Positions 33,643-46,856 of a stretch of 46,856 bases of DNA are shown piece after piece. The position numbers and the translations under genes were made by a program. Location of the stretch: contig NZ_WPCC01000026.1 in assembly GCF_009741925.1 (NCBI RefSeq), positions 1 through 46,856 of the forward strand, read 5' to 3'. Origin of the DNA: Natronomonas sp. CBA1123 (lineage in GTDB: Archaea > Halobacteriota > Halobacteria > Halobacteriales > Haloarculaceae). The notes under the pieces were generated by a model. The model was given only the letters and a program-made list of their open reading frames with translations. It did no database searches and was not told the origin of the DNA. Numbering within the stretch: the first letter of the stretch is position 1; each line of letters begins with the position of its first letter.

Positions 33643-34044
33643 ATGCGAATCGAGTTGCGGGTGTGCAAGCACTGCCACGAGGGAGACCACGGGAACCAAC
33701 AGAAAACGGCGGTGACGAGGGACATGGTGGACTGCGCCGAGCGCGTCCGCGAGTACAAGGACCTCATCGGTCTCGACTCCGTCTACATCACCAAAGTCGA
33801 AGAGGGCGACCCCGGGGGCGCCGAGGCGCTTCCGGCCATCGTCGCCAGCATCGAAAACGACCAGGTGACCCTCTCGGACACCCAGTTGGTCATGGAGGAC
33901 GAAGACGGCAACATGCTGGTGTATCCGGAGCCGAAGGACATCCTCGAAGTGCTCACGCGCAACATCGACCAGATTCAAGAGCAGACTCGACAGGACGTCA
34001 CCGTCGAGTTATCCGAGGAAGGAGCAAAACTGCTAACGGCCTGA
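33643..34044 (+). CDS. hypothetical protein with C-x2-C-x5-H motif
   Basis: A 133-residue acidic protein not recognised. The N-terminus MRIELRVCKHCHEGDHGNQQ has two Cys and two His that could bind a metal or be redox active; a third Cys is in MVDCAERV. It ends in an amphipathic helical part. It is convergent with the formate-dehydrogenase-type operon (17-base gap) and divergent from the small membrane protein. No signal peptide or membrane segment is seen. Confidence 0.75.
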   Translation: MRIELRVCKHCHEGDHGNQQKTAVTRDMVDCAERVREYKDLIGLDSVYITKVEEGDPGGAEALPAIVASIENDQVTLSDTQLVMEDEDGNMLVYPEPKDILEVLTRNIDQIQEQTRQDVTVELSEEGAKLLTA

Positions 34045-34061: not shown

Positions 34062-35075
34062 TCAGTCGTCGGTCTGTGGCTCCCCGCCGTCGGCGACCGT
34101 CTCGCCCTCGCGTTGCCGCTGTTGCATCTCCTTCTCCCAGCGGACCCGCATGACGTTGCCGTACATCGAGAGGACGATACCGACGAACAGCACGAACATC
34201 CCGATGTTGATGCCGATGGTGAGAAGCAAATTGGTCACGTCGCCGCTGACGACCAACTCCCTCGGGACGGGATACCCCTCCCGAACGATGCTTCCCATCA
34301 GCACCGACACGATTCCAACCACGACGAGCGAGCCGAATATCGTCGACACGGAGTGCCAACTCGGCGCGAGTTCCAGCGCCTCGATGCCGGTTCCCTCGTG
34401 GTCGTCGTCTTCGCCGTGGGACTCCGGAATCATGCTCCGGGGAATGAACGCCTTCGTCTCTACCGGGTAGAACGCCGGGTGCATCCCGTGTTCGAAGATG
34501 TGGAACATTACCCCCATGACCATGATGACCCCCAACAGACCGTGGAAGATGACGAACGCCATCGCCGCGGTCCGCGTCGCGAAGTACTGCATCAGTCCGG
34601 TTTTCGACCAGATGAGCAGCCCCGAGATGGTGAGCAACAGCAGTTCGACGGCGAAGATGAAGACGACCCCCTTGCCGACGTAGGACAGAAGCGGCACCTC
34701 GTCGGACTCGTAGCCGGCGAACTGCCGGGCGTGGGGATGACGTTCGTCCGTCCGCCCGAGCATGAACTGGACGTCCTGCAGGAACGCGTCGACGTCCGCT
34801 TTCCGCGGGAGGATTTCACGGAAGTTGCTTCGGCCGGTCGGACTGATGACCATCAGCACCATCCAGAAGACGATGAGCGCGACGAGTCCGAGCCCCGCGG
34901 CGCGGTGGAGTGCGGTGACGCCGGTCGCACCGCCCATCAGCGTCACCATCCACCACAACTCGGAGTTGAACATGATGGCGTAGCCGGTGAAGAACAACAG
35001 GAACACGTCCAGCGCCAGAAGCGAATGGAACAGCGTCGTCACCCGCGTAAACTTCCCGTGGTCGAGATTGGTCAT
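34062..35075 (-). CDS. fdnI: cytochrome b-type subunit of formate-dehydrogenase-like enzyme
   Basis: A 337-residue membrane protein resembling the gamma subunit of membrane-bound formate dehydrogenase. It begins with FTRVTTLFHSLLALDVFLLF and has at least five hydrophobic segments. Candidate haem ligands are the histidines in TLFHSLL, TALHRAAG, VIFHGLL and MFHIFEHGMHP. An extra C-terminal membrane segment (LLTIGINIGMFVLFVGIVLSM) and an acidic tail extend the usual form. It would carry electrons from the iron-sulfur subunit to quinone. It is the last gene of the leftward operon. Confidence 0.87.
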   Translation of the reverse strand: MTNLDHGKFTRVTTLFHSLLALDVFLLFFTGYAIMFNSELWWMVTLMGGATGVTALHRAAGLGLVALIVFWMVLMVISPTGRSNFREILPRKADVDAFLQDVQFMLGRTDERHPHARQFAGYESDEVPLLSYVGKGVVFIFAVELLLLTISGLLIWSKTGLMQYFATRTAAMAFVIFHGLLGVIMVMGVMFHIFEHGMHPAFYPVETKAFIPRSMIPESHGEDDDHEGTGIEALELAPSWHSVSTIFGSLVVVGIVSVLMGSIVREGYPVPRELVVSGDVTNLLLTIGINIGMFVLFVGIVLSMYGNVMRVRWEKEMQQRQREGETVADGGEPQTDD

Positions 35076-35109: not shown

Positions 35110-35460
35110 TCACGCTTCGCCCGACTCGCTCTCCTCGGGGTGACGCATCCGCGCGGCGAGGCGACGGAAACTCGCCCAGTGGAGGAACACCATAAACAGG
35201 ATGAACACCCCCATGATGACGTCTGCGGCGTGAACCAGCGCGATGAGGAAATCCAGCGAGGGGATGGTGTTGCCCGCGACCCAGTCGCTGCCGACGCCGC
35301 CGCCCTCGACGGTCGGGCTGACGCGGAACAGCGTCTCGTAGAACGGCCCGAAGCCGCTGGCCCACCACACCGACAGGAGCGCGACAGCAATCCCGACGAC
35401 CGCCGAGACGAGGACGGAAATCGGGGAGTAGCCGTCTACCTCCGGCGTCTCGTAGCTCAT
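35110..35460 (-). CDS. small membrane subunit of the formate-dehydrogenase-like operon
   Basis: A 116-residue protein with two long hydrophobic segments: ISVLVSAVVGIAVALLSVWW and VMGVFILFMVFLHWASF. It lies between the iron-sulfur and cytochrome b subunits, overlapping the former's stop by four bases, so it is probably an additional membrane anchor of the same complex. Histidines are present (HAADVIMG, LHWASF) but no haem motif is certain. I know no named family for it. Confidence 0.78.
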   Translation of the reverse strand: MSYETPEVDGYSPISVLVSAVVGIAVALLSVWWASGFGPFYETLFRVSPTVEGGGVGSDWVAGNTIPSLDFLIALVHAADVIMGVFILFMVFLHWASFRRLAARMRHPEESESGEA

Positions 35461-36113
35461 CGGAACTCACCGGCGTCCTCGCCGAAGACGATGTCCATCG
35501 CCACATCGTTGAAGAACGTACCCTCGTCGCGTTTGTCGAGTTCGTCCGCGATTTGGGAGGGTTGCCCGACGAGGATAGCGTCGGTCGAACACTCCTCGGC
35601 ACAGGCCGGCCCCTTCCCGATGTCCTGGCGTTCCTCACACATCGTACACTTGTCCATCGTGCCGCCGGTTCCGAACACCTGCGCGGCGCCGTCGTCGGAT
35701 TCGGGGAACTGCGGTGCGCCGAACGGACACGCCGACAAACAGTACTGACAGCCGACACAGAGGTCCTCACGGACGTCGACGAACTCCTCGTCGGTCTTGA
35801 TGAGGGAATCGGTCGGACACACCGAAACGCAGGGTGCGTTCTCGCAGTGGTAACACTGCATCGGGATGGACGTCTCGCCGGGGGATTCCCCCTGTGCGAG
35901 TGCGGCCGCGCCGGACATCCCGGACCCCTCTTGGCCCTCCAGCATCGTCGAGATGCTGATACGCTGTTCGTCCTGTGGGACGTCCCACGTGCGTTTGCAG
36001 GCGACGACACAGCCGCCACAGTCGATGCAGGCGCCGACGTCCGGGAAGATTCGCGTTCCCTCCCCGACGCTCATCACGCCGTCGCCCATTACCTCTTTGT
36101 TCGATTGGGACAT
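35457..36113 (-). CDS. fdhB: four-cluster ferredoxin subunit (FdnH/DmsB type)
   Basis: A 218-residue iron-sulfur subunit with four cysteine groups: CIDCGGCVVAC, CYHCENAPCVSVCP, CVGCQYCLSACP and CTMCEERQ with a later CAEEC, i.e. four [4Fe-4S] clusters like those of FdnH, DmsB or NrfC. It links the catalytic subunit to the membrane subunits. It has no signal peptide and would be exported together with the Tat-bearing catalytic subunit. It begins 11 bases after the catalytic gene. Confidence 0.9.
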   Translation of the reverse strand: MSQSNKEVMGDGVMSVGEGTRIFPDVGACIDCGGCVVACKRTWDVPQDEQRISISTMLEGQEGSGMSGAAALAQGESPGETSIPMQCYHCENAPCVSVCPTDSLIKTDEEFVDVREDLCVGCQYCLSACPFGAPQFPESDDGAAQVFGTGGTMDKCTMCEERQDIGKGPACAEECSTDAILVGQPSQIADELDKRDEGTFFNDVAMDIVFGEDAGEFR

Positions 36114-36124
36114 GGATTATCACC

Positions 36125-39100
36125 TCATTGAACTGTTTCGCTGTCACGGACGTCGAAGTTCTTCTGTGAACCGATGTCGTTGCGGTCCTGCGGGAACTCG
36201 AGGTCCGTGTCCATCCCGAGCTCCTCGAGTAGCTCCTGTGTCGCCGGTCGGACGGCGACCATCGACACCTTCGTCTCCTGCATCTGCGTCTCGACGTCGT
36301 AGCCGCGCGACGTAATCGCGTTCGCGGAGTCGCCGATGGCGTAGGGGACGGTCCCCTCCGGGTATTTGTCCTCCTGACTGTTCCCCTTAAACACGCCGCC
36401 CCAGTGGAACGGCAGGAACACCTCGCCGTCGTTCGGCCGGTCGGTCACGCGTGCCTTCACCAACACCGACCCCCGGTCCGTCGAGGAGACGACGACGAGG
36501 TCGCCGCCGTCGACGCCGAGTTCCTCTGCTTTCGCGGGCGTAATCTCGGCGTACATGTGGGGCTGGAGGTCGGCCGTATGGATGTTCGACCGCGTCTCCG
36601 AGCCGCCACCCTGGTGTTCGACCTGCCGGCCGGTCGTCATGATGGTGTCGAGCTCCGGCCCGTCGCTTTCGCCGTGGATGATGTCCATCGCCTGCTGTTG
36701 CTCGGTGGCGTTGTTCTGGTCGAGTCGGTAGAAGTTCTGCTGTTGACCGTTCGCCGGCCACTCCTCGACGAGGTCCGGCCGCGGACTCTCGATGGGTTCG
36801 CGGTGCACCGGCACCTTGTCGAGGAAGCTCCAGACCACCGCCCGCGCCCGCCCGCGACCGGTCGGGGCGTCGGGTTGGCTGTAGTCGTATTCCTCGTAGA
36901 ACGACGGGTCGACGTCCTTGGTCCGTTCGAGGTACTCGTCGAAGGTCGTACTTCCGGTGTTCGGGGAGTCAATCGCCTGTGCGGCGGTGTACACCGACTC
37001 TTGGCTGTCGAGTGCGTACTGCTGTGGAATCGTCAACTCGTCGGACTGCGTCGACTGCGTCGGGTCGATGAGGCTCCGTGGTGGCGTCGTCTTCCAGCCG
37101 GATACTCCGGAACGCCGTGTATCTGGCCGTCGTCGGCCAACTCCCTGTCGCTGGCCCAGTCGGGCACGTAGGGGTCCCGAATCAGACTCAGCGCGTCCTC
37201 CTGACTGTCGTATCTGTCGCCGACGGCGTCGACGGTTTCCTGGAGCGGGTAGTCCGCGTCGGTCGGCATCGCGTCCCACTCCTCCGGTGTCGGCGCCTGG
37301 ACGCCCCACCGGGTCCGGAAGTCCTGACCCCCATCGTTGGGGTTCATGTCGTCGTTCCAGATGATGGGTGTTCCCGGATGCCCCTCGCCCCAGCAGGGCC
37401 ACGGGAGCATCCAGTACTCGCCCTCGACAGGCGTTCCCTCGGCGCCTTTGAGGTCCTCACTGGAGAAGGCGTAGTCGTACTCCAGGTGCTGTTGGAGCCG
37501 TTCGGGCGTCTGGCGGTAGCCGATGGTGTTCGTTCCGAGGTTGAACTCCCGGATGACGTTCTCGTAGGACGATTTCCCGTTGTGCATCTCGGGGCCCGAG
37601 CCCCAGTCGAAGTGCTCGCCGAACCCGAGTGCGTCGGCGAGTTCCTGCATGATTCGCAGGTCGGGTCGGGAGTTGTGTGCGGGCTCTGCGACCGGTTCCG
37701 ACCACTGCACCGACCGGTTCGTGTTCGTCAGCGAGCGGTAGTGCTCGTACTGACTCGACGCCGGCAGCAACAGCACCGGCGGGCCATCCTCGTAGTCCGG
37801 AAGGACGCTCGCGACCGACGGGAACACGTCGATGACGACCAGCAGGTCGAGGTTCTCCATGCCCTCTTTCATCTGCTCCATCTCGCTGATGGAGTTCGCG
37901 GAGTGCCCCCAAAACACCGCGATTTTCACCTGGTCGGGTTGGTAAATCGGCGTCTCCTGATAGCGGTCCTCCTGGTCGAGAGCGCCTTCGAACCAGCGGG
38001 CCACCGTGAGCCCGTTCTGGAACATCATCGAGTTCTCGGCGGGTTCCTCCGGACTGTGTCCGGGGTCGTCCCGATTCGCCGGGAGGTCCGCCTCGTCGTT
38101 GCCTTCGTACACCGGATGCTGGCGGACGTACTTGTCCGGCGGCATCAACTCAAAGCGGTCGTACATGTCCGCGAACGAGGTCGAACCGCTGGTGTAGGGG
38201 TTCTTGTCCCAGATTTCGGCCCACCACGACCAGCCGCCGGGGGTGAGCCCGTAGTACCCCGGCAGGATGTGACTCGCCACCGCGAGGTCGGTCGCACCCT
38301 GGACGTTGGCGTGGCCGCGCATGACCTGCAGGCCGCCGCCGCTCCGGGCGGAACTCCCGGAAGCGAGGCTCAACGCGGCGTACGAGCGGATGTTCTGGGT
38401 GCCGTTGTTGTGCTGGGTGCCGCCCATCGCCCACTCGATTTGGACGTGGGGTCGGTTCTCATCGACCATCTCCGCGATGCGCTCGATGTCCTCCTCGGAG
38501 ACCCACGTGATGTCCGACACCGTCTCCTTGTCGTACTGGTCGAGTTCCACGTCGACGTCCTCCCAGCCCTGAACGCGGTCCGTAAGCATGTTCTGACCGC
38601 TGTCGTCGGCCTCCGGGTCCATCGCCAGCCCGTACTCGTCGCGGAGTTCCTTGATGACACCCATCATCAGCGCCACGTCGGTCCCGGGCCGGAACCGGAC
38701 GAACTCGTCGGCGTGGGCCGCGGTCTTCGTGAACCGCGGGTCTAAAACGAGTATGTCCCCGCCGCGTTTCTGCCCCTCGAGGATGTGTTGCATCGCGATG
38801 GGGTGGGCTTCGGCTGGGTTCTGCCCGACGATGATGTTCAACTCGAAGTTCCGGTAGTCCGGAACCGTGTTCGTCATCGCGCCGTAGCCCCAGGTGTTCG
38901 CCAGTCCTGCAACCGTCGTCGAGTGACAGATGCGCGCCTGATGGTCGATGTTGTTCGTCCCCATGAACGCCGCGAGCTTTCGGATGGCGTAGGACTCCTC
39001 GTTGGAGTGGTGGGCACTCCCGAGTAACATTACGCTCTCGCGGCTGTGTTCTTCGTCGACGTCGACCGCATCGCTCGGCGATACGTCCGAGTCGGGCCAC

Positions 39101-39513
39101 AGCGCCCGGATGTCGGTAGCGAGGCGGTCGTAGGCGGTGTCCCACGAGAGCTTCTGCCACTCGCCGTCTTCCCGAATCATCGGGTGTTTGAGGCGCTTTT
39201 CGGAGTGTTCGGTCTCGTAGATGCCCGCCCCTTTCGAGCAGAGCGAGCCGTTGTTTATCGGGTGGTCTTCCCACGGCTCCATGCCGACGAAGGAGTTACC
39301 CTTGCGCTCGCCGTGGAAGCCACAGCCGACCGAACAGTAGTTGCAGATGGTCTTTGTCAACTCACCTTCCGTGTCCTGTCCGTCGACCTCGTCGTCGTTT
39401 TGGGCGAGTACCTGCCCGGCCGTACCGCCACCGAGTGCCGCCACGCCTGCCAGCGCGCTCGCCTTCATGAACGACCGCCGGTCGAGGTCGAGGGAGACTG
39501 GTTCTGTGCTCAT
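36125..39513 (-). pseudogene. fdhA: formate-dehydrogenase-type catalytic subunit, frameshifted
   Basis: A Tat-exported molybdenum/tungsten bis-MGD oxidoreductase. The N-terminus has the twin-arginine signal DRRSFMKASALAG; cysteines 57, 60, 64 and 92 form the [4Fe-4S] site (CNYCSVGC ... LCSKG); the metal ligand is Cys196 followed by His197 in ARICHSTTVAGL, the Cys/Sec-His pair of formate dehydrogenases. The frame from 39513 loses meaning after VPEY at about 37102 and stops at 37033. The remaining 325 residues, including the MGD-binding domain (FLPFHWGGVFKGN), continue in another frame to 36125. One missing base near 37099-37105 would restore a protein of about 1130 residues. No further lesion is seen, so the break is recent or a sequencing error. 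Confidence 0.88.
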
Positions 39514-39713
39514 TCCATTAGTTGGCTCTCTGCCTCGTCTTTGCTTGCGATTCCCTAGCACGTTAGGAATCATCCTATATTAAAATACGGGGCCAGTCGT
39601 GGACATATTTTTAAATTAGTGGTCTGCTATCGAGAGTATTCAATCTATTTTCGTTTCTTTTCTGAAATGAATCGTCGCAAGGCATATATCCGTGGTAGCA
39701 TTGAACACACTCG
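39514..39713. promoter_or_regulatory. divergent promoter region, formate-dehydrogenase operon / polyferredoxin
   Basis: These 200 AT-rich bases drive two operons. On the minus strand TATATTAAAATA (39577-39588) predicts a start near 39550, covered by an imperfect inverted repeat GATTCC-N11-GGAATC (39549-39571). On the plus strand CATATAT (39683-39689) lies 24 bases before the polyferredoxin ATG at 39714. A further AT stretch, CATATTTTTAAATT, is near 39603-39616. Both transcripts could be controlled together. Confidence 0.55.
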
Positions 39714-41861
39714 ATGAATGTAGGGGCGTTCGTCTGCGGCTGTGGTGGAACGTGTGGTGTCGACCTCGAGGAGGTCCGCGAGGGCGTCCGCGACGTCGAT
39801 GTCGTCGCCTCCTCGGAGTTGCTCTGTGAGGGTGGCCTCGACGGCGTCGAGCACGTCATCGACGAGTACGACCTCGACCAACTCATCGTGACGGCCCCCG
39901 ACGACCGCTGTCGAAAGACGTTCCGTGAGGTACTCGACCGGAAGGGGCTACACCCGGAGGCCGCGGCGTTCGTCGACCACAGGGAACGCAACGCGTGGGT
40001 CCACGACGATTCGGCCGCTACCGACAAGACCGCACGCCTGCTCAACGCGACCCACGCCGGTCTACAGGAAGAGGCCGTCTCGCGGACGGTCTCCCGAGAG
40101 GCCGGCGACGAGGTCGCCGTCATCGGCGACGTCGAGGCAGCGGCGGCCCTCGCCGACTCCGCCGACGTAACCCTCGTCGCCGACGGTAAGGAGTTCGCGA
40201 ACGTCGATGTCGACCTCGAAGCCGTCGATATCGCTCGCGGGGAGGTCGTCGGCGTCGATGGGTCGTTCGGCGAGTTCGAACTCACGCTCGGGTCGCGAGT
40301 CACCGACGCCTGCATCGACTGCATGGAGTGTGTTCGGGAGGGACCCGACAGCGTCACGGCCAGACCCGTACAGATTCCCGCCGACGCCCCAGACGGCGAG
40401 TGGACCGACGTGTGTCCCACCGACGCCATCGAGATGGAGGGAACGACCCGTCGAATCGTCGTCGACCAGGTTGTCTACCCGGACGCCGACCCCGACACCC
40501 GCGGCGGCCGCGTCGGCTACTACACCGGCCCCGTCGACGCCGCCACGATAGCGGCCGTCGAAACCCATCTCGGCGGCATCGAGAAGCCAGCCTTCCTCGA
40601 CCTCGAGATGGACGTGTGTGCCGCGGGGGAGTCCTCCCAACAGGGCTGTACCGCCTGTACCGACGCCTGTCCGCACGACGCGGTCCAGCGACCGACCATC
40701 GACTCCGTGGAGTTCGACGAGGTGGCCTGTCAGAACTGTGGCGCCTGCACGTCGGCGTGTCCCACGGGTGCGACGAAGCTTCGTGAACCCTCCAACCGAC
40801 GCATCGCCCGCGAAGTCGAGGCACTTCTCACCGCCGAGAACGACGACGGTGGCTGGCTGTTTGCCCGCGGGACCGGCGGCATCGAGCGACCCGTCGTCGC
40901 TTTCGTCTGCTCGGAGCGGGCCGCCGACCGCCTGCGGGAGTACGGCCGCCGGGCCGCACTCGATGAAGACGTTTCCTACCCGCCGGTGTTGCCCGTGGAG
41001 GTCAACTGCACCGACACGGTCGGCGAGGCCCACGCCCTTCACGCGCTGGCCGCCGGCGCCGACGGCGTCGCGGTCGTCGGCTGTGGAGAGGCCTGTCTCC
41101 ACTCCGGCCCCGACCCGAAGGCCGAACTCGTCGAGCGACTGAACCGCGCCAGTTCGGACCTCGGATTGGGCGAGCGCGTGACGTTTCTCGCACCGGGAGC
41201 CGACCATGAGACGTTCTGTGCGGAGTTGGAGTCGTTCGTCGACGGCCTCGACGAGTCGCCGGTTCCCACCGGCGAACACGAGGCGACGGGCACTATCGAC
41301 GGCGACATCGACCGTCCGGCCTTCGCCTCCCACGCGTGGACGCTCGAATCCGTTCGCGTGCTCCTCGAACACGTCGAGCCCGAGCGCGAAATCGTTCGTG
41401 GGCTGAAGGACTTCGGACGGATGGAGGTGTCGGATGCTTGCAACCTGACGCCGACGTGTACGAACCTCTGTCCAACCGACGCCATTCAGCGAACCAACGA
41501 CGGCGACCTACTGTTCAACCACGAGCGCTGTGTCAACTGTGGCCTCTGTGAGGAGGGCTGTCCGGAGACGGCGATTACGATGCAGGACGGGTTGGAGCTG
41601 TCGCTGTTGCCGGAACACCGCGAGGAACCCCCCGACGGCGTCCCGGAGGAACTCGGGACCGCGTGGACCCGCGTCTACGACGGCGAGATGCAGGAGTGTG
41701 TCCGCTGTGGCAAACCCTTTGCCTCCGCCGGGACCATCGAGACGGTTCGCGGGGAAGTCGGCGACGCCGTCGAAGGTATCGCTCCCGACTCCCCGCATTC
41801 GGTGTTCGAGTACTGCGGGGACTGCCGGACGCACCTGCTGTTCGAACGAGGTGAGAACTGA
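39714..41861 (+). CDS. HdrA/MvhD-like polyferredoxin
   Basis: A 715-residue protein built from pieces of heterodisulfide-reductase systems. Residues 1-95 match the HdrA N-terminus (VGAFVCGCGGTCGVDLEEV). Residues 131-195 keep only a shrunken Rossmann-like remnant (VAVIGDVEAAAALADSADV) in place of the HdrA FAD domain. Then come CIDCMEC with CP at 234, a group at 302-319 (CTACTDACP), CQNCGACTSACP at 339-350, an MvhD-like domain at about 392-505 with Cys 399, 432, 457 and 461, CNLTPTCTNLCP at 576, CVNCGLCEEGCP at 606, and a final C-x2-C pair twice (662/665 and 701/704), probably a zinc ribbon. No export signal is present, so it is probably cytoplasmic. It overlaps the TorD-like gene by one base. 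Confidence 0.85.
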   Translation: MNVGAFVCGCGGTCGVDLEEVREGVRDVDVVASSELLCEGGLDGVEHVIDEYDLDQLIVTAPDDRCRKTFREVLDRKGLHPEAAAFVDHRERNAWVHDDSAATDKTARLLNATHAGLQEEAVSRTVSREAGDEVAVIGDVEAAAALADSADVTLVADGKEFANVDVDLEAVDIARGEVVGVDGSFGEFELTLGSRVTDACIDCMECVREGPDSVTARPVQIPADAPDGEWTDVCPTDAIEMEGTTRRIVVDQVVYPDADPDTRGGRVGYYTGPVDAATIAAVETHLGGIEKPAFLDLEMDVCAAGESSQQGCTACTDACPHDAVQRPTIDSVEFDEVACQNCGACTSACPTGATKLREPSNRRIAREVEALLTAENDDGGWLFARGTGGIERPVVAFVCSERAADRLREYGRRAALDEDVSYPPVLPVEVNCTDTVGEAHALHALAAGADGVAVVGCGEACLHSGPDPKAELVERLNRASSDLGLGERVTFLAPGADHETFCAELESFVDGLDESPVPTGEHEATGTIDGDIDRPAFASHAWTLESVRVLLEHVEPEREIVRGLKDFGRMEVSDACNLTPTCTNLCPTDAIQRTNDGDLLFNHERCVNCGLCEEGCPETAITMQDGLELSLLPEHREEPPDGVPEELGTAWTRVYDGEMQECVRCGKPFASAGTIETVRGEVGDAVEGIAPDSPHSVFEYCGDCRTHLLFERGEN

Positions 41862-42508
41862 TGGACGATAACAGAATCTACGAGGCCCGACTGGAAGTGA
41901 TAGATTTCCTCGTCGAGGTGTTCTACGACGCCCCGAGCGAGGAGTTCCTCGGACGGCTGTTCTCCGGCGACGTGGCCGTCCCCGACGACGAAATCAACGA
42001 GCGGATGGACCGCGGCTTCGAGCGCCTCGAGGCGTTCATCGAGGCCAACCGGTCCCGTCCGGTCGAGGAAGTCGCCGACGAACTCCGGACGGAGTACACC
42101 CGGCTGTTCGTGGGGCCGCGACCGCCGGCGTTGCCCCACGAGACGTACTTCCGTGAGGACACCGAACTCATCGGCGAGGGACTGACGGCGCTCGAAGCCG
42201 CCTACTCCGCGGCCGAGTGGGCTCCGCCGGATGATTACCCCGAGGAAAACGACCACGTCGCCATCGAACTCGCGTTCCTTCGAAACCTCGTCGACCGCCA
42301 GCGCCGCGGCGAGAAGGCCGCCTTCAACTACGAACGCGTGTTCATCGACGAGCATCTCCGGACGTGGGACGAGCAGTTCCTCGAAACGATAGCGTCCGAA
42401 CTCGACGAAGGCGACGCCGAGACCGACCTCTTTCTCGCCGGCGCGGAAGTGCTCGTCGGGTTCGTCGACTTCGAGGACGAACTCGTCGCCCAGCAGGTGC
42501 CTACCTAG
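41861..42508 (+). CDS. TorD/DmsD-like molybdoenzyme chaperone
   Basis: A 215-residue all-helical acidic protein with EYTRLFVGPRPPALPHE, a TorD-family signature (the Y/L-F-x-G-P segment), and a C-terminal half of amphipathic helices. Such chaperones bind the Tat signal of molybdoenzymes until the cofactor is inserted. The Tat-bearing catalytic subunit encoded 2 kb away is the obvious client. It starts inside the stop of the polyferredoxin gene (TGATG), so that protein is made with it. Its 3' end overlaps the convergent small gene by eight bases. Confidence 0.88.
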   Translation: MDDNRIYEARLEVIDFLVEVFYDAPSEEFLGRLFSGDVAVPDDEINERMDRGFERLEAFIEANRSRPVEEVADELRTEYTRLFVGPRPPALPHETYFREDTELIGEGLTALEAAYSAAEWAPPDDYPEENDHVAIELAFLRNLVDRQRRGEKAAFNYERVFIDEHLRTWDEQFLETIASELDEGDAETDLFLAGAEVLVGFVDFEDELVAQQVPT

Positions 42509-42992: not shown

Positions 42993-43127
42993 TCAACACC
43001 AGTGTTCTCTGTAGGCGTCGTAGGCGACGACGGCGACGGCGACGAACCCGAGACCGAGAACGACGAACGAGGTCAACGACGCCTGAGGAGTCGTTCCGAG
43101 GTGTGCGATACCATTGACCATGGGCAT
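42993..43127 (-). CDS. 44-residue single-helix membrane protein
   Basis: Reading the minus strand gives MPMVNGIAHLGTTPQASLTS, then FVVLGLGFVAVAVVAYDAYR and EHWC before the stop: one hydrophobic segment and a short C-terminal tail with His, Trp and Cys. A TATA-like GGTTTAGAC on the minus strand about 20 bases before the ATG supports a start of transcription here. It leads the three-gene unit of small membrane proteins. The second Met (43121) is an alternative start. Confidence 0.6.
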   Translation of the reverse strand: MPMVNGIAHLGTTPQASLTSFVVLGLGFVAVAVVAYDAYREHWC

Positions 43128-43245
43128 AGTTGTGAATCACCAGTCTAAACCCTTGTGGAACCCCAATCGTTTCTGTCACGAAGTGGGTCGAACAGGTCAT
43201 CGAGCCGCGAAAAACGCTTTTGACTGTCCAGACGTACTCCAGCGC

Positions 43246-44478
43246 ATGCCCTCGCGACGCGGCCTCCTCGGACGGCTGGTGGCGCTCGGCGCCGCGACGA
43301 TTCCGGGGTGTTCGGCGGTGCTGTCGCGGCGCCGTAACTCGCCGGTGTCGCTCCCGCCGAACCCTCACGAGGTGCCCGACCGCCAGCACGCGTGGGACGC
43401 CGTGTTGCACACCGACGAACACGGCAACCGCCACCCGCCGCGTCATCACCGCGTGCTCCTCTTGGAGTTGGATGTCGAGCCCTCGGTCGAGGCCGCCGAC
43501 ACCGTCGAGACGGCGATGCGCGAGGTGGAGGCCACCTACGAATGGTCGCCGGAGGGACTCCTCCACGCGCTGGCGTGGGGGACCGACTACTTCGAGCGAA
43601 TCGACGAGTTGGACACCTCGCCGATTCGCAAGCCGGAGGTGCTGTCGCGGACGGACGACCCCGACCTCCTCTCCTATGACGCCGCCCTCGTCCTCGCCAC
43701 CGACGTGCCCTCACATCTGGTCCGCACGGAGACGGCGCTGTTCTCGGAGTCCGACCCACTCGAAGGCCGGGACCTCGACGCCCGATTCGGCGAGGTGTTC
43801 TCGATTGCCGCCCGTCGAACCGGGTTCCACGGGGCAGGGCTTCCAGCCGAACACACCGACGCCGAGGGCGTTCCGAACGATATTCCCCAGGACGCACCCA
43901 TGTTCACCGGGTTCATGTCGATGCGCCGAGGCACACAACCGAGCGAGGACCGCATCACCATCGACGGCGGGGCCCTCGACGACAGCCGCTTCGACGGTGG
44001 CACGACGATGCATCTCTCACATCTCTCGGAGTCACTCGACGACTGGTGGGCGATGGCCGACGAAGAGCGCGTCGCTCGGATGTTCTCACCCGACTTCTCC
44101 CCCTCGGACGTGGACTCACTGACCGACACCGTGCCGTTTGCCGACAGCGCCTTCGACCACGCCGCGGAGTTCGGCGTCGTCGGCCACCACGAGAAGGTTG
44201 CTCGGACGCGTGAGGACGGCCAGCCGGTCATCCTGCGCCGGGACTTCAACACGACGGACGGCGGCCGGGCTGGCGTCCACTTCCTGTCGTTTCAGGCGTC
44301 GCTCGACGACTTCGTCGCCACGCGGAAGGCGATGAACGGGTGGTTCCTGCGGAACGAACACGAGCAAGTGACCGACAGGAAAAACAACGGCCTGCTGAAC
44401 TTCATCGAGGTGGAGTCGCGGGCGAACTTCTACGTGCCGCCGCGTTCCGACCGGGCGTTTCCGGCGTTCTCGCCGTAG
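43246..44478 (+). CDS. Tat/lipobox secreted DyP-peroxidase-like protein
   Basis: A 410-residue exported protein. The N-terminus MPSRRGLLGRLVALGAATIP followed by GC combines a twin arginine with a lipobox-like Cys, i.e. a Tat lipoprotein. The body shows the ferredoxin-like duplication of DyP-type peroxidases, ending with GVVGHHEKVARTREDGQPVI, GVHFLSFQASLDDFV and FYVPPRSDRAFPAF, similar in order to EfeB. The haem-ligand His may be one of those in GHHEK, but the catalytic GxxDG of DyP is not clearly seen, so it may not be a peroxidase. I start at ATG 43246 because the longer frame hides the signal peptide. Confidence 0.75.
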   Translation: MPSRRGLLGRLVALGAATIPGCSAVLSRRRNSPVSLPPNPHEVPDRQHAWDAVLHTDEHGNRHPPRHHRVLLLELDVEPSVEAADTVETAMREVEATYEWSPEGLLHALAWGTDYFERIDELDTSPIRKPEVLSRTDDPDLLSYDAALVLATDVPSHLVRTETALFSESDPLEGRDLDARFGEVFSIAARRTGFHGAGLPAEHTDAEGVPNDIPQDAPMFTGFMSMRRGTQPSEDRITIDGGALDDSRFDGGTTMHLSHLSESLDDWWAMADEERVARMFSPDFSPSDVDSLTDTVPFADSAFDHAAEFGVVGHHEKVARTREDGQPVILRRDFNTTDGGRAGVHFLSFQASLDDFVATRKAMNGWFLRNEHEQVTDRKNNGLLNFIEVESRANFYVPPRSDRAFPAFSP

Positions 44479-45446: not shown

Positions 45447-46152
45447 TTACTCCACCTGCCACTCTGCTTTCTCCGCGGCGTCCTCCAGCGGGAGGAACTC
45501 CCAGCCATCCGGTGCCCACCCCGCCTCCTCGGGGACGCCGACGAGGACGAATCGCTCGGCGTAGAACATCGAGTGGCGGTCTATCTCCGCGAGACGTTCG
45601 GTGGGTCCGGTCCCGCTTCCGCTGAAGAAATCCACGTCTATGGTGTGCTCTCGCTGGAATCGGTTGATGACGTGAGCCGGTACCTCGCCGACCAGACCGA
45701 GCCAGTCGGCCCACTCCGCCGCGTCCGCGAAGACGTAGGCGGGGTTCGCCAGCCGTTTCGCGGCTTCGTAGGTGAGCGCGAGCGTCATGTCGTCGGCGTC
45801 GCCGCCGTGTGGACCGGACGCCTGCTGGCCGTCGGCCTCCGACGCCTCCGGTTGCGCGGACTCGGAGTCCGCACTCCGGCCGGCACCGCCCCCCGGAACC
45901 GCCGCCTTCGACGGGAATGCCCGCCGGCCTGTCTTTATTCTCGTGAGGGACGTGTGGGACCGCCCCGGAACCACCGTCAGCGACGTTTCCGTCCTCCGGG
46001 TCCGCGCTCCGAGCGGCCCCGGTATCGGCTTCCGCGGAGTCTTGCTCCGGCGGGGACTGGTCGGTATCGTCACGCCAGAGCCAGTCACCGTCGTTTCCGG
46101 GCTCCGATTCGGATTCGGTCTCGATGTCGTCGAGGTCGATTTCGTCAGTCAT
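45447..46152 (-). pseudogene. two-part acidic protein, frameshifted at a C6 run
   Basis: The frame from 46152 encodes an acidic disordered leader (MTDEIDLDDIETESESEP ...) that makes sense until about 45894 and then turns Arg-rich. The frame one base over carries the sensible rest, with EWADWLGLVGEVPAHVINRF and GVPEEAGWAPDGWEFLPLED. The switch is at six C residues (45889-45894, G6 in the gene). One fewer base gives a protein of 234 residues. The C-terminal 113 residues could also be made alone from an internal ATG (complement 45788). The start overlaps the AOR-like stop by eight bases. Domain function unknown. Confidence 0.72.
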
Positions 46153-46856
46153 CGTCGAGAGTCAGTGGTGTCGACGCCACGGGCGTCTCCTCGTCGACCG
46201 CTTCGAGCAGGTCCAGCCGGTCGAGCGTCTCTCGGGCCGGGATGCCGGCTTCGCTCCAGCCACGGGCCGCATAGTAGCGGTCGAGCGTCGCCTCGAACTC
46301 GACCGACAACTCCTCGGAATCGACGACCTCGGGAAGCGCGTCGTCGGTGCGGTCGAACCCCTCTCGGACGTTGAACAGCCGAACGAGGTTCCAGATGCGT
46401 TCGCCCGTTCGGTCGAGGTCGTCGTACGGGGCGCCGACCGAGTCGAGCCACTCGGCGCCGTCGTCGGCCAGCACCTCGCCGACGAAGTCGTCGGCGACGA
46501 GCGACCACCGCACCGAGCGGGTGTCCTGTGCTGCGGCGACCGACCGAACGACACGGTCGGGACTCCACGGGCCGTCGAAGGCTTCCTCCTCTACGGGGCG
46601 GGCTCGGCGGTGACACCCGCCGCGGTCGCTCGTCGCGTAGGCCAGCGCCATGCTCGCCGCGCCGCGGGGGTCGTAGGCCGGAAGCTCCATGTCCTTGACC
46701 GTCGGCACCAACTCGTCGCCGCCGTACTCGCGGGCCGCGGCGTCGACACCATCTGCCAGGGCGTCACCGAGTGGCGTCGAACGGGTCGCCACGGCTTCCA
46801 GTAGCTCTCGGGCACCTGCCGCGTCGCCGAAACGCACGTCGGCGTCCACCAACCCC
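46145..46856 (-). CDS. aldehyde:ferredoxin oxidoreductase-like protein, C-terminal part
   Basis: The C-terminal 236 residues of a tungsten-pterin AOR-family protein (usual length about 600); the N-terminus lies beyond the window. MELPAYDPRGAASMALAYAT followed by SDRGGCHRRA is the family hallmark of domain 2/3, and WNLVRLFNVREGFDR is also typical. Family enzymes oxidise aldehydes and reduce ferredoxin. In the segment equivalent to D-S-L-x2-C, which supplies the last cluster cysteine in AOR, this protein reads RWSLVADDF, so the Asp and Cys are absent. It may be a diverged paralogue. Confidence 0.85.
   Translation of the reverse strand, partial: GLVDADVRFGDAAGARELLEAVATRSTPLGDALADGVDAAAREYGGDELVPTVKDMELPAYDPRGAASMALAYATSDRGGCHRRARPVEEEAFDGPWSPDRVVRSVAAAQDTRSVRWSLVADDFVGEVLADDGAEWLDSVGAPYDDLDRTGERIWNLVRLFNVREGFDRTDDALPEVVDSEELSVEFEATLDRYYAARGWSEAGIPARETLDRLDLLEAVDEETPVASTPLTLDDD

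Follow-up and report, generated by a model that had tools for sequence, protein, structure and literature searches.

The window analyzed here, 46,856 nucleotides of contig NZ_WPCC01000026.1 from Natronomonas sp. CBA1123, encodes a 715-residue iron-sulfur protein, hereafter HDR, followed by a TorD-family chaperone. The layout of HDR was established from its open reading frame, Pfam and NCBIfam matches, profile comparisons and an AlphaFold2 model (pLDDT 88.7, pTM 0.86), as follows.

39714..41861, + strand: HDR, a FAD-less polyferredoxin of the HdrA-MvhD-HycF type, 715 aa
39714..40088, + strand: HdrA N-terminal domain, aa 1-125, with Cys 8, 10, 14 and 38
40104..40301, + strand: first segment of a FAD/Rossmann remnant, aa 131-196, GxGxxG motif lost
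40311..40445, + strand: inserted ferredoxin domain, reduced, aa 200-244, with one CxxCxxC...CP cluster
40446..40604, + strand: second segment of the FAD/Rossmann remnant, aa 245-297, where the HdrA equivalent has ~250 residues
40617..40769, + strand: HdrA C-terminal ferredoxin domain, aa 302-352, with two [4Fe-4S] clusters whose cysteines are invariant in all clades
40893..41249, + strand: MvhD/FlpD domain, aa 394-512, with four cysteines
41409..41846, + strand: HycF-like ferredoxin and C-terminal zinc ribbon, aa 566-711
41861..42508, + strand: TorD/NarJ-family chaperone, 215 aa, its start overlapping the HDR stop by one base

HDR residues 2-140 match positions 2-142 of the NCBIfam HdrA model, which cover the N-terminal domain, and in a profile search against solved structures residues 2-217 aligned to HdrA 5-259 (chain E 6.9e-42). 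Against solved HdrA, a protein of ~650 residues, profile alignment was obtained over this region, the inserted ferredoxin and the C-terminal ferredoxin. The best NCBIfam HdrA scores, 75-113 bits, do not reach the curated cut-offs of 1100-1400 bits. The MvhD domain is a clear Pfam FlpD match (2.7e-14, 53.7 bits against a gathering score of 22.3) and the sole one in this genome, and residues 559-681 resemble formate hydrogenlyase subunit 6 (HycF), zinc-ribbon cysteine pairs included. Counted cluster by cluster, HDR has an N-terminal site of 3-4 cysteines, a mid [4Fe-4S] site (C200, C203, C206 and C234), two sites in Fd1 and two in Fd2, one of the latter with three cysteines in the haloarchaeal clade, where the cysteine at position 579 is absent from 24 of 24 main-clade proteins. 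The sequence-only reading had described an HdrA N-terminal domain, about five [4Fe-4S] motifs, an MvhD-like [2Fe-2S] domain and a C-terminal zinc ribbon; these searches bear out all four, and structure prediction with profile comparison, the check that it had proposed, recovered both the HdrA and the MvhD domain. Pfam gave no match of HDR to FdhD or to FdhE_N, and neither Pfam nor NCBIfam found a DNA-binding or signaling domain in it.

The principal departure from HdrA lies in the flavin domain. In HdrA two long FAD segments flank the inserted ferredoxin, of which HDR keeps 68 + 58 residues; profile alignment shows a shortened first part and no counterpart to the thioredoxin-reductase part at HdrA ~340-584. 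The deleted stretch covers the positions numbered E356 and K409, residues named as marks of bifurcating HdrA (PMC12054007). The GxGxxG motif is gone from 24 of 24 haloarchaeal relatives, and just 2 of 21 relatives of the ANME-1/Methanocellales type still have it. That the FAD domain is almost deleted, as first read from the letters, is thus a fair description of function but not of fold: residues 131-289 of the model retain a thioredoxin-reductase Rossmann core (Z 9-10, ~107 residues aligned, rmsd 2.7-2.9). The N-terminal cluster of HdrA has as a ligand Cys197, donated by the partner's flavin domain (PMC9012536), and profile alignment matched no counterpart of the Cys197 loop in HDR. An extra cysteine, Cys14, is present in 22 of 24 haloarchaeal members and, judged from the alignment, may replace this ligand. 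We considered whether HDR is simply a degenerate copy of a flavoprotein and rejected this, as the FAD-less form is shared by most haloarchaeal relatives at ~50-86% identity and by other classes at ~30%; close relatives that keep a full FAD domain, which would have pointed to degeneration, were not found. Because one published HdrA survey reports FAD residues kept in all groups (PMC9012536) and another classifies HdrA on the basis of the TrxR domain (PMC12054007), the HDR family falls outside both. The best explanation is that HDR descended from an HdrA-MvhD-type protein, losing the bifurcating flavin and gaining a HycF-like ferredoxin and a zinc ribbon.

The 215-residue protein that follows starts within the HDR stop codon (TGATG), as had been read from the sequence, and matches Pfam Nitrate_red_del at 3.8e-25 (89 bits against a gathering score of 22.2); it lies below the TorD equivalog cut-off, which places it at family level only. 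On the other side of HDR, 140 bp away and divergent from it, lies the formate dehydrogenase (FDH) operon that the sequence-only reading had reported, and further genes in the window recur in related loci.

37033..39573, - strand: FdhA, the FDH catalytic subunit, N-terminal part with Tat signal, Cys-His and RGHxNxQG, running into a frameshift
36125..37402, - strand: C-terminal part of FdhA, in a different reading frame, with the in-frame region starting near 37,100
35457..36113, - strand: FdhB, the FDH iron-sulfur subunit (Pfam/NCBIfam)
35110..35460, - strand: small conserved FDH-operon protein, 116 aa, with a membrane segment predicted from sequence
34062..35075, - strand: cytochrome b subunit of FDH, Ni_hydr_CYTB family
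33643..34044, + strand: orf133, a conserved protein of 133 aa that has a CxxC at its N-terminus and matches no Pfam family, present in 52 surveyed loci
43114-44478: conserved protein with a twin-Arg/lipobox-like N-terminus and no NCBIfam match, a neighbor in 27 surveyed loci
46145..46852, - strand: C-terminal end of an AOR-like (aldehyde ferredoxin oxidoreductase) gene, cut by the contig end, a recurrent neighbor

FdhA in the window carries the Tat motif DRRSFMK, the catalytic Cys-His motif ICHST and the Arg motif RGHANVQG. Its gene is shifted in frame by one base within a run of G at 37,090-37,110 on the minus strand, whereas the N. gomsonensis gene (L152) has an intact frame of 1153 codons; the shift may be a sequencing error or mark a recent pseudogene, so that the system in this particular assembly may be either mis-sequenced or recently broken. 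At another locus (L095, in genome G351) the FdhA beside an intact HDR is likewise interrupted, and the same genome holds a second, intact FdhA at L113.

Searches of 391 Halobacteria genomes recovered HDR homologues in 111, mostly full length and FAD-less, the closest named relative being that of N. gomsonensis YCN60 with an HDR 97% identical; further named relatives include Halorubrum, Natrinema and Halobaculum. Profile searches also found full-length relatives in further classes of the phylum, in Methanophagales/ANME-1 and in Methanocellales or Methanosarcinales MAGs (taxon names taken from named loci), and shorter forms of 557-572 aa in another family. Across all four HDR groups the cysteines of Fd1, most of those of Fd2 and those of the zinc ribbon are conserved; those of the MvhD and N-terminal domains are not. 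The four MvhD cysteines are kept in 24 of 24 haloarchaeal relatives, are absent in a distant haloarchaeal clade and are incomplete in many ANME-1/Methanocellales members.

We then compared gene neighborhoods, with counts that rest on a crude ORF caller, which missed TorD in several type I loci, for example, supplemented by tblastn and profile searches. Of 171 loci, 142 have TorD directly adjoining HDR in the same orientation, and in 89 stop and start overlap or touch. Among 155 FdhA-like neighbors, an RR Tat-type motif is present in 152, the Cys-His motif in 138 and the Arg motif in 134, the last two not in PhsA/Psr-type proteins. In the window and most other loci (type I), FdhA-FdhB-small protein-CytB is divergent from HDR-TorD. 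Type II loci (L059, L062, L063 and L066) have orf133 immediately upstream of HDR, then FdhA-FdhB-NrfD-TorD. In the four type III loci (L060, L070, L074 and L076) the partner is of a second type, an exported molybdoenzyme of PhsA/Psr-like character, in the order PhsA/Psr-like complex-TorD-HDR-ApbC-MobA, with MobB also identified in L060. The distant haloarchaeal type reads FdhA-FdhB-CytB-TorD-HDR, followed in several cases by AOR (L077-L082). In other classes HDR-TorD stands beside FdhA-FdhB, often with MobA near, as in the order FdhA-FdhB-CytB-MobA-HDR-TorD-SufS-FdhD of L146. Over all these arrangements the membrane subunits beside HDR vary (cytochrome b, NrfD, DmsC-like and others), and the cofactor genes found around HDR in other lineages comprise MobA, MobB, ApbC, cysteine desulfurase and FdhD. 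The link to a molybdoenzyme drawn from the single locus therefore extends to the homologues, which are mostly adjacent to such genes rather than far from them.

The AOR-like neighbors themselves are unusual, as 48 of 52 proteins examined lack CxxCxxxC, the [4Fe-4S] motif found in aldehyde ferredoxin oxidoreductases. A gene for a YqeC-family selenium-cofactor protein (TIGR03172) lies beside the AOR-like gene and MobA at L095 (18436-19326) and at 24 more haloarchaeal loci. A tungsten-enzyme relative that lacks Fe-S and is encoded next to FDH, MobA and YqeC may have a cofactor-handling function of its own.

Co-occurrence also ties HDR tightly to FDH. In the 391 Halobacteria genomes, HDR and FdhA were both found in 107, HDR only in 4, FdhA only in 1 and neither in 279, so that HDR is found in 107 of the 108 FDH-bearing genomes (Fisher value 3e-90, by a test that ignores phylogeny). 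Judged by genus labels, at least 14 genera hold both members with HDR and FDH and members with neither, and one genus (g56) is discordant, so the two were gained or lost jointly many times. Individual genomes depart from the usual pattern: G129 has FDH and TorD without detectable HDR, G297 carries its FDH-TorD locus and HDR at separate sites, and G359 has a distant-type FDH operon without the usual HDR and a main-type HDR elsewhere. HDR is thus retained though unlinked to FDH in G297, G359 and G377. HDR probably acts in trans, as the arrangements in G297 and G359 indicate, and either HDR type seems able to replace the other.

A 2023 review noted that halobacteria often encode formate dehydrogenases without fdhD and named the proteins of cofactor insertion and sulfuration as a gap (PMC10609526). 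Consistent with this, FdhD was found in 0 of 391 Halobacteria genomes (8 of 14 controls positive), and by a second model in 0 of 25. FdhE was found in 0 of 62 genomes, a weaker negative as only 1 of 14 controls was positive. The source genome has neither FdhD nor FdhE. Outside Halobacteria, HDR and FdhD coexist in 20 of 20 genomes, which weakens the idea that HDR simply replaces FdhD; any role in sulfuration would therefore either supplement FdhD or be confined to Halobacteria. In the literature searched we found no published description of the HDR family, nothing on TorD together with MvhD and no relevant description of haloarchaeal FDH with FdhD or TorD.

Taken together, these data lead us to favor, with moderate confidence, the reading that HDR acts in the cytoplasm as a factor dedicated to maturing Tat-exported molybdo/tungsto-enzymes, chiefly the membrane-bound FDH. 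Two regularities speak for maturation: a Tat-exported Mo/W enzyme, TorD and a cytoplasmic HDR stay constant while the membrane electron acceptor varies, and genes of cofactor and Fe-S assembly recur beside HDR. In such a scheme TorD would hold the FdhA(B) precursor via its Tat signal, HDR would dock on the TorD-held precursor and pass on low-potential electrons or [4Fe-4S] clusters, the precursor's Fe-S/bis-MGD site would thereby be built, sulfurated or reductively activated, and the completed FDH complex would be exported after assembly. The physical interaction, the transfer of electrons or clusters and the step served are all inferred. A protein acting in the cytoplasm before Tat export would also dissolve a puzzle of topology raised earlier, that the enzyme is exported and HDR is not. 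FDH sulfuration without FdhD proceeds in vitro given sulfide and a strong reductant (PMC12140954), a precedent which suggests, by analogy, that a low-potential polyferredoxin could supply the reductant. We regard it as possible, but rather doubtful, that HDR-TorD is the missing FdhD-independent route to a sulfurated Mo/W-bisMGD site, with HDR driving reductive sulfuration or Fe-S loading before export. Several points count against maturation. HDR coexists with FdhD outside Halobacteria, G129 has FDH and TorD without detectable HDR, up to six cluster sites and a [2Fe-2S] domain exceed the needs of a chaperone, and the AOR-like gene directly after HDR in one haloarchaeal clade would fit electron transfer.

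Co-occurrence and neighborhood are compatible with electron transfer both during assembly and during catalysis; in the latter case HDR would be a non-bifurcating electron wire, joining either the quinone pool or the membrane subunit of FDH to an acceptor such as cytoplasmic ferredoxin. HdrA, MvhD and HycF each conduct electrons in known complexes, and the retention of modules from all three would suit such a wire, as would the conservation of ferredoxin-domain cysteines across clades and the near-perfect co-occurrence with FDH. We nevertheless consider it unlikely, since the membrane partners are of unrelated types while HDR is constant and is repeatedly found next to TorD and Mo-cofactor genes; moreover, HDR also accompanies the PhsA/Psr-like enzyme, the MvhD cysteines are not kept in the distant clade or in many ANME-1/Methanocellales members, and HdrB scored over cut-off in 0 of 20 genomes (two controls did). 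Partnership with the neighboring aldehyde/tungsten oxidoreductase, with the FDH link secondary, appears improbable. An AOR-like gene lies near HDR in 51 surveyed haloarchaeal loci, directly downstream in the distant clade, and close AOR relatives occur in 37 of 40 genomes with HDR. However, they also occur in 15 of 40 genomes without it, which weakens AOR as an obligate partner, none was called beside HDR in PhsA-type loci, most AOR-like neighbors are missing the cluster motif, and the link of HDR to FDH is much tighter. Iron-sulfur proteins can sense redox state and the gene order in the window is divergent, so that HDR could be imagined as a redox or oxygen sensor regulating the FDH locus; this we hold very improbable, as HDR has no recognizable DNA-binding or signaling domain and is conserved beside TorD and cofactor genes, not regulators. 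Of the roles first entertained for HDR, then, maturation is favored by context, the FAD-less wire is weakened and sensing found no specific support.

HDR-TorD is therefore a testable candidate for the haloarchaeal FDH maturation gap of PMC10609526. If the maturation reading is true, the scaffold of a bifurcating enzyme has lost its flavin and taken on a new use in enzyme assembly, and the pair may aid heterologous FDH production for CO2 reduction.

Among known systems, HdrA and HdrA2 (an HdrA-MvhD fusion) share with HDR the N-terminal domain, the inserted and C-terminal ferredoxins and the fused MvhD in the same order. They differ in that HDR has a reduced FAD domain without GxGxxG, an added HycF-like module and a TorD partner, and in that the genomes tested gave no HdrB score above the cut-off. 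HDR residues 559-711 resemble HycF in joining a ferredoxin and a zinc ribbon, but form a module of a larger protein, and no group-4 hydrogenase genes were noticed nearby. FdhD and FdhE are, like the proposed HDR, FDH accessory proteins, FdhE being needed only for exported FDHs and binding iron via CxxC motifs (PMC10609526), but HDR matches neither family and coexists with FdhD outside Halobacteria. NapF is cytoplasmic, as HDR is, carries multiple [4Fe-4S] clusters and is encoded with a Tat-exported bis-MGD enzyme; in R. sphaeroides the exported NapA depends on this four-cluster protein for its Fe-S assembly, and NapF is proposed to act before export (PMC10609526). NapF is small and has no HdrA, MvhD or zinc-ribbon parts, and HDR matches it at the ferredoxin level only, but by analogy it appears to be the best functional precedent for HDR.
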